A stretch of DNA of 33,392 bases from Chloroflexota bacterium. Its GTDB lineage: Bacteria; Chloroflexota; Dormibacteria; Dormibacterales; Dormibacteraceae. This document shows positions 5,521-30,775 of the stretch, one piece after another. The stretch spans positions 1 through 33,392 of the forward strand of contig VBEK01000156.1 of the NCBI GenBank assembly GCA_005889135.1, given 5' to 3'. The position numbers were made by a program, and so were the translations under genes. A model generated the notes under the pieces. That model saw only the letters and a program-made list of their open reading frames with translations. It made no database searches and had not been told where the DNA came from. The number at the start of each line of letters is the position of its first letter. Position 1 is the stretch's first letter.

Positions 5521-7584
5521 ATGGCGCAGACCACAAAGACGCGCGAGCCGTCCTTCACGCCCGAGTGGCGGTTCCAGCAGCCCGTCGCGTGGCGTGACAC
5601 CGACCTGGACGAGAACATCCTGACCGAGTGGTTCCACTACATCCTCCTCGGCCGCCAGATCGACTACCGCTTCCAGGTCCTCAACCGTCAGGGCCGCGCG
5701 CCTTTCATCATCTCGTGCGCCGGGCACGAGGCCGCGCAGATCGGGGTCGCTTGGCCCCTGAAGCCCAAGTACGACTGGCTCGCCCCGTACTACCGCGACG
5801 TCGTGCTCTGCATGCGCGTGGGGATGACGCCGCTCGACCTGATGCTCTCCGTGCTCGCCAAGGCAACCGACCCGGCGTCGGGCGGCAAGCAGACGCCCGG
5901 CCACTTCTCCGACTCGCGGCTGAACATCACCTCGGGTGGCTCACCGGTCGCGACTCAGATGGTCCGCGGCGCGGGTATCGCCTACACGCTGAAGATGAGC
6001 AAGACCGACAAGGTCCTGCTCACCTGCTACGGCGAGGGCGCCGGCGCCGAAGGCGACGCGCACGAAGCGTTCAACTTCGCCGCCATCTACAAGCTGCCCG
6101 AGGTCTTCGTCTGTGAGAACAACGGCTTCGCCATCTCGACGCCGTTCCGCAAGGAGTACGCGATCGAGCACGTCGCCCAGCGGGCCGCGGGCTACGGCTT
6201 CCCGGGCGTCACGGTCGACGGCCGCGACCCGGTCACCTGCTACGTCGTCTCCAAGGAGGCCGTGGCCCGGGCGCGCGCGGGCGACGGCCCGACGCTGATC
6301 GAGTGCCTGGTCGACCGTCTCGGCGCGCACTCCTCGGAGGACGACCAGCGCCGCTACCGGACGCAGGAGGAGATCGAGCTTCTCAGCCAGAGCGACTGCC
6401 TCGAGCGCTTCAAGAAGCAGCTCATCGAGGAGGGAGTGCTCAGCGCCAAGCAGGTCGCCGAGTTCGAGGAGCAGGTCAAGGAAGAGGTCACGGCCGCGAC
6501 CAAGAAGGGCATGGAGGCGGACGACCCGCTGCCCGAGGACGCGCTGAAAAACGTCTACGCGGTCGAGTTTCCCAAAGCGATCGAGCCGGCGGCGGGTGTC
6601 GAGACCGAGGGGATGAACATGGTCGCGGCGCTGCGCTCCGCGCTCACCGAAGAGATGGAGCGGGACGAGCGCGTGATGGTGATGGGCGAGGACGTCGGCA
6701 TGAAGGGCGGCGTGTTTCTCGTCACCGACGGCCTGCGCGCAAAGTACGGCGAGGAGCGCGTCATCGACACGCCGCTGGCCGAGTCGTCGATCGTCGGCGT
6801 CGCCCTGGGACTGGCGATCGCGGGCAAGCGACCGGTGGCGGAGATCCAGTTCACCGACTTCGTCCACATGGCGTTCAACTCCATCGTCAACGAGGCGGCG
6901 AAGTACCGCTACCGCAGCGATGGTGACTGGAGCGTGCCCATGGTCGTGCGCGCGCCGATGGGCGGGCACGCGCACGGCGCCCTGTACCACTCGCAGTCCA
7001 TCGAGGCGCGATTCGCCACTCCCGGGCTCAAGATCGTCATTCCGTCTACGCCCTACGAGGCCAAGGGCCTGCTCCTCGCCGCGATTCGCGACCCGGACCC
7101 GGTGCTCTTCTTCGAGCACAAGCGGCTCTACCGCATGTTCAAGGAGCCCGTTCCCAAGGGCGAGTACCTGATCCCACTGCAGACCGCGCGCACCGCGCGC
7201 GAGGGCAGCGACATCTCGGTGTTCTGCTACGGGCTGATGGTCCACTACGCGATCGAGGCGGCGAAGAACCTCGAGGCCGACGGGGTCAGCGTCGAGATCG
7301 TCGACCTGCGCACCGTCTACCCGCTGGACCGGGAGGCGATCATCGCCTCGGCGAAGAAGACGGGCAAGTGCCTGGTCCTCTACGAGGACAACTTCAGCGT
7401 CTCCATCGGCTCGGAGGTCGCAGCTCTGATCGCCGACGAAGCGTGGCGCTGGCTCGACGCGCCCGTCAGGCGGTTCGGCGGGCTGGACGTTCCCTCGATG
7501 CCCTACGCGGTGCCGATGGAGGAGTACTTCATGCCGACGCCGGACAAGATCACGAAGGTCTTGAAGGACCTGGCCGCGTACTGA
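5521..7584 (+). CDS. 2-oxoacid dehydrogenase E1, fused alpha-beta (branched-chain type)
   Basis: A 687-residue thiamine-diphosphate enzyme in which the E1 alpha and beta chains are one polypeptide. The alpha part (about 1-345) carries the ThDP/Mg motif starting at Gly171-Glu172-Gly173 and ending at Asn200-Asn201 (CENNGFAIST). The GEG form, rather than GDG, and GDAHEAFNFAA resemble branched-chain 2-oxoacid dehydrogenase E1 alpha. The beta part starts near Met365 (MNMVAALRSAL), with GEDVGMKGGVF, the RYRSDGDWSVPMVVRAPMGGHAHGA-type core and a transketolase C-terminal domain (VEIVDLRTVYPLD). It decarboxylates the 2-oxoacid and acylates the E2 lipoyl arm. E3 lies four bases upstream and E2 overlaps downstream. 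Branched-chain 2-oxoacids are the likeliest substrates; pyruvate cannot be excluded. Confidence 0.93.
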   Translation: MAQTTKTREPSFTPEWRFQQPVAWRDTDLDENILTEWFHYILLGRQIDYRFQVLNRQGRAPFIISCAGHEAAQIGVAWPLKPKYDWLAPYYRDVVLCMRVGMTPLDLMLSVLAKATDPASGGKQTPGHFSDSRLNITSGGSPVATQMVRGAGIAYTLKMSKTDKVLLTCYGEGAGAEGDAHEAFNFAAIYKLPEVFVCENNGFAISTPFRKEYAIEHVAQRAAGYGFPGVTVDGRDPVTCYVVSKEAVARARAGDGPTLIECLVDRLGAHSSEDDQRRYRTQEEIELLSQSDCLERFKKQLIEEGVLSAKQVAEFEEQVKEEVTAATKKGMEADDPLPEDALKNVYAVEFPKAIEPAAGVETEGMNMVAALRSALTEEMERDERVMVMGEDVGMKGGVFLVTDGLRAKYGEERVIDTPLAESSIVGVALGLAIAGKRPVAEIQFTDFVHMAFNSIVNEAAKYRYRSDGDWSVPMVVRAPMGGHAHGALYHSQSIEARFATPGLKIVIPSTPYEAKGLLLAAIRDPDPVLFFEHKRLYRMFKEPVPKGEYLIPLQTARTAREGSDISVFCYGLMVHYAIEAAKNLEADGVSVEIVDLRTVYPLDREAIIASAKKTGKCLVLYEDNFSVSIGSEVAALIADEAWRWLDAPVRRFGGLDVPSMPYAVPMEEYFMPTPDKITKVLKDLAAY

Positions 7585-8969
7585 TGGCGGGCAAGACCAC
7601 GCGCGTCGTGATGCCGCAGCTGGGCGAGTCGGTGCACGAGGGCACGATCTCGCGCTGGCTGGTCAAGCCGGGGGACAAGATCGTCGAGTTCGAGCCCATG
7701 CTCGAGGTCGACACCGACAAGGTCAACGCCGAGGTGCCGGCGCCCGTGTCCGGGATCCTGCGCGAGATCCTGGCCAAGGAGGGTGAGACGGTGCAGGCCG
7801 GGGCCGAGATCGCGGTGGTCGAGACGGGAGACGGCCAAACTCCCCCTCCCGCGCCAGCGGACGCTGCTCCCTCTCCCGCGCCAGCCAGAGAGGGTCGGGG
7901 TGAGGGGCGTCAAACTCCCTCTCCCGCGCCAGCGGCCGCTGCCCCCTCTCCCGCGCCAGCCAAAGAGGGTCGGGGTGAGGGGCGTCAAACTCCCTCTCCC
8001 GCGCCTGCGGCCGCAACTCCCTCTCCCGCGCCAGCGGGAGAGGGTCGGGGTGAGGGGCGTGGGCCAGAGCAGCCTGCCGAGCCTCATCGGTACTCGCCCG
8101 GCGTGCAGATGGCCGCCTCCGAGCTCAAAGTCGACCTCTCCAGAGTCACCGGCACCGGGATCGGCGGGCGGGTGACGAAGAAAGACGTCCAGGACTTCGC
8201 CGCCAAGGCCAAGGCCGCCCCCTCACCCCCAGCACCCGCCACCGCCCCGCCCGCGGCCGTGACCCGCGGCGATGCCGACGAGGTGGTTCAGCTCACGCGC
8301 GTCCGCCGCCTGATCGCCGAGAACATGACGCGCGCCAAGCAGACGATCCCGCACGCGTGGCAGACCCAGGAGGCGGACATGTCCGGGGTCGTGGCCAACC
8401 GCAACGCCAGCAAGGCCGCGTTCCAGAAGCAGGAGGGCTTCTCCCTCACCTATCTCCCCTACGTGATGGCGGCGGCGCTCTCCGCACTGCGTGAGAACCC
8501 GCACGTCAACGCGACCTTCAACGAGACCGAGCTGATCGTCCACCGCGACATCAACCTCGGCATCTCGGTCGGCATGGAGGACACGCTGCTGGTGCCCGTG
8601 ATCCGGAGGGCCGACGGCCTCTCCATCGCTGGCCTCGCCCGGGCGGTCAACGACCTCGCCACCCGCGCTCGCAGCAAGCAGCTGAAGGCCGATGAGCTTG
8701 CGGGCGCGACGTTCACCGTCAACAACTCGGGCACCTTCGGCACCCTGTTCAGCTACTCGGTCATCAACCCCGGCCAGGCCGGCATCCTGACCATGGAGGC
8801 GATCGTCGAGCGGCCAGTCGCCGTCAACGGCCTGATCGGGATCAAGCCGATGATGTACCTGTGCTTCTCGTTCGACCACAGGGTGCTCGACGGCCTGCAG
8901 GCCGCCCGCTTCCTGACCGCCTGCCGGAAGTGGCTCGAGGCGGTCTCCCTTGAGACACCGGTCTACTAA
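7584..8969 (+). CDS. 2-oxoacid dehydrogenase E2 (dihydrolipoyl acyltransferase)
   Basis: A 461-residue acyltransferase core of the complex. The order is a lipoyl domain (1-80, lipoylated Lys46 in DTDKVNAEV), a long Pro/Ala-rich linker (about 84-165) of three 25-residue repeats, a peripheral subunit-binding domain (SPGVQMAAS...GTGIGGRVTKKDV), a second Ala/Pro linker, and the catalytic domain ending with His432 and Asp436 in FDHRVLDG. The ATG at 7584 overlaps the E1 stop (TGATG), so E1 and E2 are translationally coupled. The linker DNA is a tandem 75-bp repeat containing a palindromic element, unlike the rest of the gene. All catalytic residues are present, so the protein should be functional. 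Confidence 0.93.
   Translation: MAGKTTRVVMPQLGESVHEGTISRWLVKPGDKIVEFEPMLEVDTDKVNAEVPAPVSGILREILAKEGETVQAGAEIAVVETGDGQTPPPAPADAAPSPAPAREGRGEGRQTPSPAPAAAAPSPAPAKEGRGEGRQTPSPAPAAATPSPAPAGEGRGEGRGPEQPAEPHRYSPGVQMAASELKVDLSRVTGTGIGGRVTKKDVQDFAAKAKAAPSPPAPATAPPAAVTRGDADEVVQLTRVRRLIAENMTRAKQTIPHAWQTQEADMSGVVANRNASKAAFQKQEGFSLTYLPYVMAAALSALRENPHVNATFNETELIVHRDINLGISVGMEDTLLVPVIRRADGLSIAGLARAVNDLATRARSKQLKADELAGATFTVNNSGTFGTLFSYSVINPGQAGILTMEAIVERPVAVNGLIGIKPMMYLCFSFDHRVLDGLQAARFLTACRKWLEAVSLETPVY
7836..8060 (+). repeat. Three in-frame 75-bp tandem repeats in the E2 linker
   Basis: Units lie at 7836-7910, 7911-7985 and 7986-8060, each exactly 75 bp (25 codons) and differing at only a few positions. 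Each begins CAAACTCC and ends GGTCGGGGTGAGGGGCGT. Each encodes a 25-residue block that starts QTP, contains PSPAPA and ends EGRGEGR. Each unit contains two copies of a CCCTCTCCCGCGCC core. The 75-bp length keeps the frame open, and the Pro/Ala-rich product is acceptable in a flexible lipoyl-arm linker. Confidence 0.95.
8019..8044. repeat. Perfect 11-bp-stem palindrome within the third E2 repeat
   Basis: CCCTCTCCCGC (8019-8029), loop GCCA, then GCGGGAGAGGG (8034-8044) form a perfect inverted repeat, followed by GTCGGGGTGAGGGG. On the reverse strand this reads as CCCTCACCCC-spacer-CCCTCTCCCGC-hairpin, which resembles from memory a widespread interspersed palindromic repeat of many GC-rich bacterial genomes. 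Units 1 and 2 have the same layout with a degraded right arm (CCAGAGAGGG or CCAAAGAGGG). Confidence 0.75.
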
Positions 8970-13385: not shown

Positions 13386-13413
13386 GTCTTCGCCTCAGGC
13401 GGCCGAGACGCCG

Positions 13414-13513
13414 GATAGTCGCGACTAACCCCGGTGTTGGCCCGCGAAAAGCGCGGATAGTCGCGACTAACGCCGGTGTTGGCCCGCGACAGGCGCGGAT
13501 AGTCGCGACTATC
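13414..13513. repeat. Palindromic 42-bp-period array 1 (3 units)
   Basis: GATAGTCGCGACTA occurs at 13414, 13456 and 13498, spaced exactly 42 bp. Its core TAGTCGCGACTA is a perfect 12-bp palindrome, extended in the last unit to 16 bp by a following TC. The first two 28-bp spacers begin ACCCCGG and ACGCCGG and end in GCG; the last unit is followed by unrelated sequence (TCGAGGGTT). The array fills the 157-base gap between two convergent genes. Confidence 0.95.
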
Positions 13514-16995: not shown

Positions 16996-17264
16996 TTTAG
17001 TCGCGACTCACGGTGGTTCGGGAGGTCGCGAAGGGCTGATAGTCGCGACTATCCACCCATTCCGCGCTCGAGAATGCGCGATAGTCGCGACTAACGTCGG
17101 ATCTTGGGGACCCAAGGGGCTGATAGTCGCGACTAACGTCGCTTCTTCGGGACCCAAGGGGCTGATAGTCGCGACTATCCACCCATTCCGCGCTCGAGAA
17201 TGCGCGATAGTCGCGACTAACGGCGGTTGCGGAGGTCGCGAAGCGCGGATAAGTCGCGACTATC
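16996..17264. repeat. Palindromic 42-bp-period array 2 (7 units)
   Basis: Units start at 16996, 17038, 17080, 17122, 17164, 17206 and 17248, an unbroken 42-bp period. Five units carry GATAGTCGCGACTA exactly. The first has TTTAGTCGCGACTC, and the last has one inserted A (GATAAGTCGCGACTA). Units 2 and 5 are identical over all 42 bp, with spacer start TCCACCCATTCC. Units 3 and 4 share ACGTCG...GACCCAAGGGGCT, and units 1 and 6 share ACGG...GGAGGTCGCGAAG. The array fills the 299-base gap between acyl-CoA dehydrogenase and the CvpA-like gene. Confidence 0.95.
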
Positions 17265-30663: not shown

Positions 30664-30675
30664 GCCACAGGCGCC

Positions 30676-30775
30676 GATAGTCGCGACTAACGGCGCTTCT
30701 CAGGCACCAAACGCGTGGATAGTCGCGACTAACGGCCGTTCTCAGGCGCCAAACGCGCGGATAGTCGCGACTATC
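30676..30775. repeat. Palindromic 42-bp-period array 3 (3 units)
   Basis: GATAGTCGCGACTA occurs at 30676, 30718 and 30760, exactly 42 bp apart. The two internal spacers are close relatives (ACGGCGCTTCTCAGGCACC... and ACGGCCGTTCTCAGGCGCC..., both ending in AAACGCG plus two bases). The last unit continues TCGAAGG, matching the TCGAGGG and TCGGGAT after the last units of arrays 1 and 2. The array lies between the helicase and the epimerase, with its last palindrome ending 21 bases before the epimerase -10. Confidence 0.95.

Follow-up and report, generated by a model that had tools for sequence, protein, structure and literature searches.

In a genome of the Dormibacterota, the gene for the E2 acyltransferase of a 2-oxoacid dehydrogenase complex contains three head-to-tail copies of a 75-bp sequence. 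Does this array represent an ordinary coding repeat, or is it a non-coding DNA repeat that has come to be read as protein? The original prediction favored the second answer: a dispersed palindromic element, recruited as an in-frame linker and then amplified, recalling the palindromic elements that lie inside genes of Rickettsia. Here, we describe the array, its counterparts in the genome that carries it, and the equivalent linkers of related species. "The window" refers to the whole stretch of DNA that was analysed (33,392 nucleotides); it belongs to a metagenome assembly (2.95 Mb, 221 contigs, 94.7% complete), referred to as G000.

The E2 linker is encoded by an array of 75-bp units

The features of the locus are listed below. 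"Element A" is the short repeat that makes up the array.

5521-7584, plus strand: fused E1 alpha-beta subunit, 687 aa, directly 5' of E2 (PF00676, PF02779 and PF02780).
7584-8969, plus strand: E2 acyltransferase of the 2-oxoacid dehydrogenase complex, an intact ORF of 461 aa with Pfam domains Biotin_lipoyl, E3_binding and 2-oxoacid_dh; aligned with 19 relatives.
7605-7817, plus strand: lipoyl domain, E2 residues 8-78 (PF00364, E = 1.5e-21).
7836-8060, plus strand: E2 linker array, three tandem 75-bp (25-codon) units derived from element A, reading QTPSPAPAAAxPSPAPAxEGRGEGR (Tandem Repeats Finder, translation, unit comparison, codon-shuffle test).
7842-7860, plus strand: truncated left arm of element A, unit 1 (CCCCCTCCCGCGCCAGCGG), from sequence; half-plus-whole layout as in the non-coding array of contig C198.
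7869-7906, plus strand: element A core, unit 1, with eroded stem CAGAGAGGG, from sequence; hairpin non-significant.
7917-7935, plus strand: truncated left arm of element A, unit 2, from sequence.
7944-7981, plus strand: element A core, unit 2, with eroded stem CAAAGAGGG, from sequence; hairpin non-significant.
7992-8010, plus strand: truncated left arm of element A, unit 3 (CCCTCTCCCGCGCCTGCGG), from sequence.
8019-8056, plus strand: element A core, unit 3, intact CCCTCTCCCGCGCCAGCGGGAGAGGGTCGGGGTGAGGG (hairpin and third-strand tract); hairpin z = -3.2, perfect pattern match at G000:C221:8036-8056.
8091-8192, plus strand: E3-binding (peripheral subunit-binding) domain, E2 residues 170-203 (PF02817, E = 1.1e-10).
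8274-8945, plus strand: E2 catalytic acyltransferase domain, residues 231-454 (PF00198, E = 4.3e-72).

Tandem Repeats Finder delimits the array at 7836-8060 with a period of 75, 3.0 copies, 92% matches and 0% indels, in agreement with the three predicted units, each exactly 75 bp long. Its reading phase matches that of the ORF at 7584-8969 (phase 0), and it codes for residues 85-159. Because the Pfam domains at residues 8-78 and 170-203 flank these residues, the array is the linker between the lipoyl and subunit-binding domains, as had been proposed. An example of the peptide predicted from the sequence is EGRGEGRQTPSPAPAAAAPSPAPAK. An AlphaFold2 model of E2 (20 sequences) had a mean pLDDT of 44, too low to inform on the linker.

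Each unit consists of a truncated left arm of element A (CCCTCTCCCGCGCCAGCGG) followed by one whole element. Unit 3 has the predicted perfect 11-bp stem, CCCTCTCCCGC/GCGGGAGAGGG, with loop GCCA and then TCGGGGTGAGGGG; folded as DNA, this hairpin reaches -15.3 kcal/mol (z = -3.2), a value equalled by none of 200 shuffles. In units 1 and 2, where the stem is lost, folding was equalled by 44/200 and 18/200 shuffles, respectively. The units differ from one another by 4-7 positions each, and the frame is kept throughout. The linker DNA is a dispersed element read in frame; loss of the stem in two of the units has left the frame untouched. Scored against the element consensus, the linker reaches 58; 200 codon shuffles averaged 21, and none scored as high. 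The linker uses the serine codon TCT, which makes up 4% of Ser codons in the group.

Element A is dispersed in its own genome and matches a known motif

If the array derives from a dispersed repeat, copies should lie outside genes. A search of G000 found ~30 good ones, nearly all outside same-frame coding ORFs. With the array as query, there were 28 matching places. The core pattern, CCCTCTCCC..GGGAGAGGG-TCG-GGGTGAGGG (34-40 bp), occurs 27 times on the forward and 30 times on the reverse strand with ≤3 mismatches, 29 matches being exact, and is spread over many contigs. Non-coding copies also form arrays, with units of 70, 46 and 41 bp, none a multiple of three; among the four element A arrays compared, only that in E2 has a multiple-of-three unit. 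On contig C198, a non-coding array likewise joins a half element to a whole one, as the E2 unit does.

By its core sequence, element A is the intrastrand-triplex motif known as BoxC/PIT/TM_ECO, a G+C-rich hairpin with a G-rich tract behind it that could return as the third strand of a putative triplex. Comparison with Table 1 of PMC4666352 shows the core to equal that of TM_ECO from E. coli, an example being CCCTCTCCCTGTGGGAGAGGGTCGGGGTGAGGGC. The hairpin, 3-nt spacer and G-rich third tract of this motif are present in the 29 exact matches in G000, one of which is in unit 3, and the copies are dispersed, numerous and on both strands. No Rfam family matched within the window. The RAYT tyrosine transposase (PF01797) is absent from G000, in a search that detects the E. 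coli control, and the element A copies examined, which terminate in GGGTGAGGG, have no GTAG or CGTC tag. Neither a transposase nor a target-site duplication was found for the elements; therefore, we infer insertion from presence and absence.

Linkers of relatives carry different elements

We compared the E2 genes of relatives, which identify the group as Candidatus Dormibacterota; the genes were taken from two sets of loci. Their linkers vary, containing element A, a second element (element B), B on the opposite strand, both, or neither. Element B, CTCCTCCCC..GGGGAGG-TG-hairpin-GGAGGGG, is built like A: a hairpin is followed by a G-rich tract that mirrors the purine strand, with a small second hairpin between. 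Judging from this architecture, B could form a triplex. With presence defined as a score of ≥40 and no codon shuffle as high, A and/or B are present in 17 of 31 Dormibacterota E2 linkers, always in frame, as against 0 of 19 linkers of paralogous E2 proteins, which are equally Pro/Ala-rich. Element-free linkers of a plain Ala-Pro type occur in G017, G019 and G031, and linker blocks are clearly common to G007, G008 and G016. Comparison across relatives revealed no single conserved linker; the element differs or is missing by species.

Two observations concern individual linkers. In L014, L023 and L033, element A seems to have additional bases between the hairpin and the third tract, perhaps a longer variant or a nested insertion. 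The E2 of L037 (JAJPKS010000070.1, titled Bacillota) and that of G036, which belongs to the family of the window, group as one and the same sequence; the Bacillota title of the public record is therefore probably mistaken.

The linker element is one in which its own genome is rich. We counted A and B across 43 genomes. Element A occurs in linkers only of genomes with ≥7 A copies (10/0 versus 5/10, Fisher p = 0.00096; within the genus alone, 8/0 versus 1/5, p = 0.003), and B only where there are ≥5 B copies (10/0 versus 7/8, Fisher p = 0.0077); these values ignore kinship, the cut-offs of 7 and 5 were chosen after the counts were seen, and the counts include the E2 copies themselves. Rank tests, which need no cut-off and also ignore kinship, gave p = 0.0012 and 0.0067. 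An independent-pairs test corrected for kinship (5-6 pairs) was one-directional and not significant. G000 fits the trend: a loose pattern finds element B at background level only, i.e., the genome is essentially without B, and likewise its E2 linker. For 10 genic copies, the third-strand letter, T or A, was compared by eye with the majority letter of the genome, and the two agreed in 9.

In-frame copies occur in other conserved genes

A codon model trained on GC3-rich ORFs, applied to ~140 element copies from five genomes, yielded 12 in-frame candidates; a model built from unselected long ORFs gave no discrimination and was replaced. The automatic call is conservative: the E2 of the window itself escaped it, since the repeat scores poorly as coding. 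B-type calls in G006 (L214, L223, L237) involved doubtful genes or positions near a start and were left out. The solid cases are the O-antigen ligase (Wzy_C) in G000 and G010, DnaE in G010 and G008, and CarB in G011. DnaE, CarB and a PaaK-like CoA ligase were identified by sequence, not by family search.

In-frame copies recur at the same loop in several species, and close relatives have clean empty sites. In DnaE, one loop contains element A in frame in seven members of the genus (G000, G003, G007, G008, G010, G013, G016); eight further members lack it there, as do the genomes read outside the genus. G010 (filled) and its sister species G002 (empty) differ by a clean 51-bp in-frame segment, and the exact empty site, e.g., DFSMTDGRILFG, is found in many species. 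Some species share the 3' flank GAGGGGCGTGG of their DnaE copies, as would be expected if a single old insertion had later been lost or transferred. The DnaE insertion of G013 (L267/L269) is internally expanded, PSPPRGEGQGEGRGDGQREGRGEGHGEGRG, indicating that amplification after capture extends beyond E2. In CarB, element B occupies an interdomain linker in five species, on the opposite strand in G005. The linker of G000 CarB (L271) reads GHLPVNGEV and looks like an eroded relic of B, in a genome now almost without this element. A loop of the PaaK-like ligase contains element A in three genomes: G000, and G002 and G010, where its position is shifted.

When the tree is built with the element-bearing loops left out, E2 requires a minimum of 6 changes for each of A and B, DnaE 4 for A, CarB 4 for B and the PaaK-like ligase 2 for A; these minima do not distinguish gain from loss. 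At any one locus, a gain cannot be told from a loss or from interspecies recombination.

Comparison with known repeat families

The 23 BoxC/PIT/TM_ECO copies of E. coli MG1655 are all intergenic (Holder et al. 2015, PMC4666352). Element A shares with them the core CCCTCTCCC..GGGAGAGGG-NNR-GGGTGAGGG, dispersal on both strands in tens of copies, and the lack of a linked transposase. By contrast, Dormibacterota copies form arrays, coexist with the triplex-like element B, and are read in frame in conserved genes (for A, those for E2, the PaaK-like ligase, DnaE and the O-antigen ligase), so that an exclusively intergenic location, reported for E. coli K-12 and not a defining property, does not apply.

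Rickettsia palindromic elements (RPEs), described by Ogata, Claverie and colleagues, are 105-146 bp long and lie both between genes and in frame within proteins (reviewed in PMC2229807). The likeness to RPEs that had been suggested holds as an analogy, given the in-frame copies in DnaE, CarB, the PaaK-like ligase and the O-antigen ligase: in both systems, a palindrome occurs intergenically and within conserved proteins, and the carrier genes are still plausibly functional. The elements themselves differ. Those described here are unrelated in sequence, lack the 105-146-bp Rickettsia-specific palindrome, measure 35-45 bp (core 34-40 bp), come from G+C-rich soil bacteria, have been captured by the same linker in many species, and are amplified in tandem.

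Intragenic REPs tagged with GTAG/CGTC are short palindromes within ORFs, including that for DnaE of Rickettsia conorii, and their insertion sites mostly differ (Di Nocera et al. 2013, PMC3733652). As with our elements, such palindromes are found within ORFs of several bacteria, and grouped repeats code for dozens of residues. The Dormibacterota elements differ in having neither the GTAG/CGTC tag nor a RAYT in their own genome, and in recurring at the same loops. With regard to mobility, the clean 51-bp presence/absence in DnaE of sister species could reflect either gain or loss. The enterobacterial ERIC/YPAL ORFs are likewise small dispersed repeats with open frames that are fused to genes. 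They are, however, MITE-like units of 103-168 bp, with many of the fusions in hypothetical proteins (Delihas 2007, PMC2759123; reviewed in PMC2229807). Overall, element A works like RPEs and intragenic REPs, but by sequence, tag and transposase it belongs to neither. We found no prior report of coding BoxC or of Dormibacter repeats in the open-access literature searched; as far as these papers show, novelty lies in BoxC being used as coding sequence, in there being a second element family, in the phylum, and in elements converging on a single linker.

How a non-coding repeat may have become a linker

We propose, with a probability of roughly 0.85, that the repeat in the E2 linker derives from a dispersed element of non-coding DNA, one copy of which has come to encode protein. 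Elements A and B are scattered between genes in this Dormibacterota family and would occasionally land within genes. Most such landings would presumably be lost; the survivors would have a length that is a multiple of three, lack stop codons, and lie where the protein is flexible. Of the regions of this kind seen here, the E2 lipoyl arm is the most permissive, since its length, its flexibility and a Pro/Ala/charged composition would be all that counts, and a typical frame of A, PSPxxGEGxGEG, would make a serviceable linker. In the window, a single landing of a half plus a whole element may have been amplified to three head-to-tail 75-bp units, as in the non-coding copies of G000 but restricted to multiples of three. 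After capture, the hairpin would decay at the DNA level while the frame is retained. Insertion would draw on resident copies, and selection would act on frame and flexibility only. That a non-coding repeat was recruited as protein, the core of the original prediction, could have failed on two counts, i.e., a genome without non-coding copies or a linker uniform among relatives; both turned out otherwise, and this interpretation is supported. In the sense of functional selection, the term "domesticated" is unsupported; "tolerated" as a linker suffices.

Linkers of E2 are Pro/Ala-rich in most bacteria, and the plain Ala-Pro linkers of G017, G019 and G031 invite the view that the array is an ordinary low-complexity Pro/Ala/Gly/Glu repeat that arose by slippage and resembles a palindrome by chance or G+C bias. 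Codon shuffles never attained the element match, the equally Pro/Ala-rich paralog linkers scored 0/19, a second element family occurs in either orientation, rare codons are used, and the same sequence is present in non-coding DNA of G000. The non-coding copies and the controls refute this view, to which we attach hardly any credence. An artefact is similarly far-fetched. All genomes compared are metagenome assemblies, so the copy number of three, itself read from such an assembly, could be wrong, and short reads could have been collapsed or misjoined at an element repeated across the 221 contigs of G000; yet the frame is intact through three units that have diverged at 4-7 positions each, and elements lie within the E2 genes of many independently assembled genomes. 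It is also quite improbable, if less so, that the element is kept for a role in DNA or RNA (triplex-mediated replication pausing, a transcript hairpin, or a recombination hot spot), with coding as a by-product. BoxC/TM motifs are conserved in many bacteria, form triplexes in vitro and are tied to local instability (PMC4666352), and unit 3 has kept its perfect stem, but the other two units have lost theirs while keeping the frame, copies in relatives are degenerate, and the element sits at loops or linkers of unrelated genes.

A more serious alternative, though still an unlikely one, is that E2, DnaE, CarB and other genes acquired their elements in old, ancestral insertions, followed by loss, replacement or interspecies recombination rather than by many insertions. 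The parsimony counts are blind to this distinction, and the flank GAGGGGCGTGG of the DnaE copies and the linker blocks of G007, G008 and G016 are what shared ancestry would produce. Against it, the same E2 linker has, across species, two unrelated elements, in both orientations and at differing positions; the element type tracks the stock of the genome; and exact empty sites such as DFSMTDGRILFG are present in many species. On balance, we lean slightly toward the reading that A and B are active protein-invading elements in Dormibacterota, which have repeatedly and independently inserted in frame into the same flexible loops of core enzymes (the E2 lipoyl arm, DnaE, CarB, the PaaK-like ligase and the O-antigen ligase). 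BoxC would thus be coding, RPE-like, and a recurrent source of linkers. In Dormibacterota, the replicative polymerase, CarB and E2 present both empty and filled sites, a natural series that lets one read insertion, direction and tolerance directly. The case also illustrates a route by which non-coding repeats turn into protein linkers in bacteria that are not obligately intracellular, and two unrelated elements converge on the same linker.

A third palindrome in the window

A third dispersed palindrome, GGATAGTCGCGACTAAC, lies at 13412-13511, 17031-17221 and 30671-30773 of the window; no copy was found in E2. G000 contains 263 copies with ≤1 mismatch, compared with 0 for a reversed-pattern control, often in 42-bp tandem arrays.
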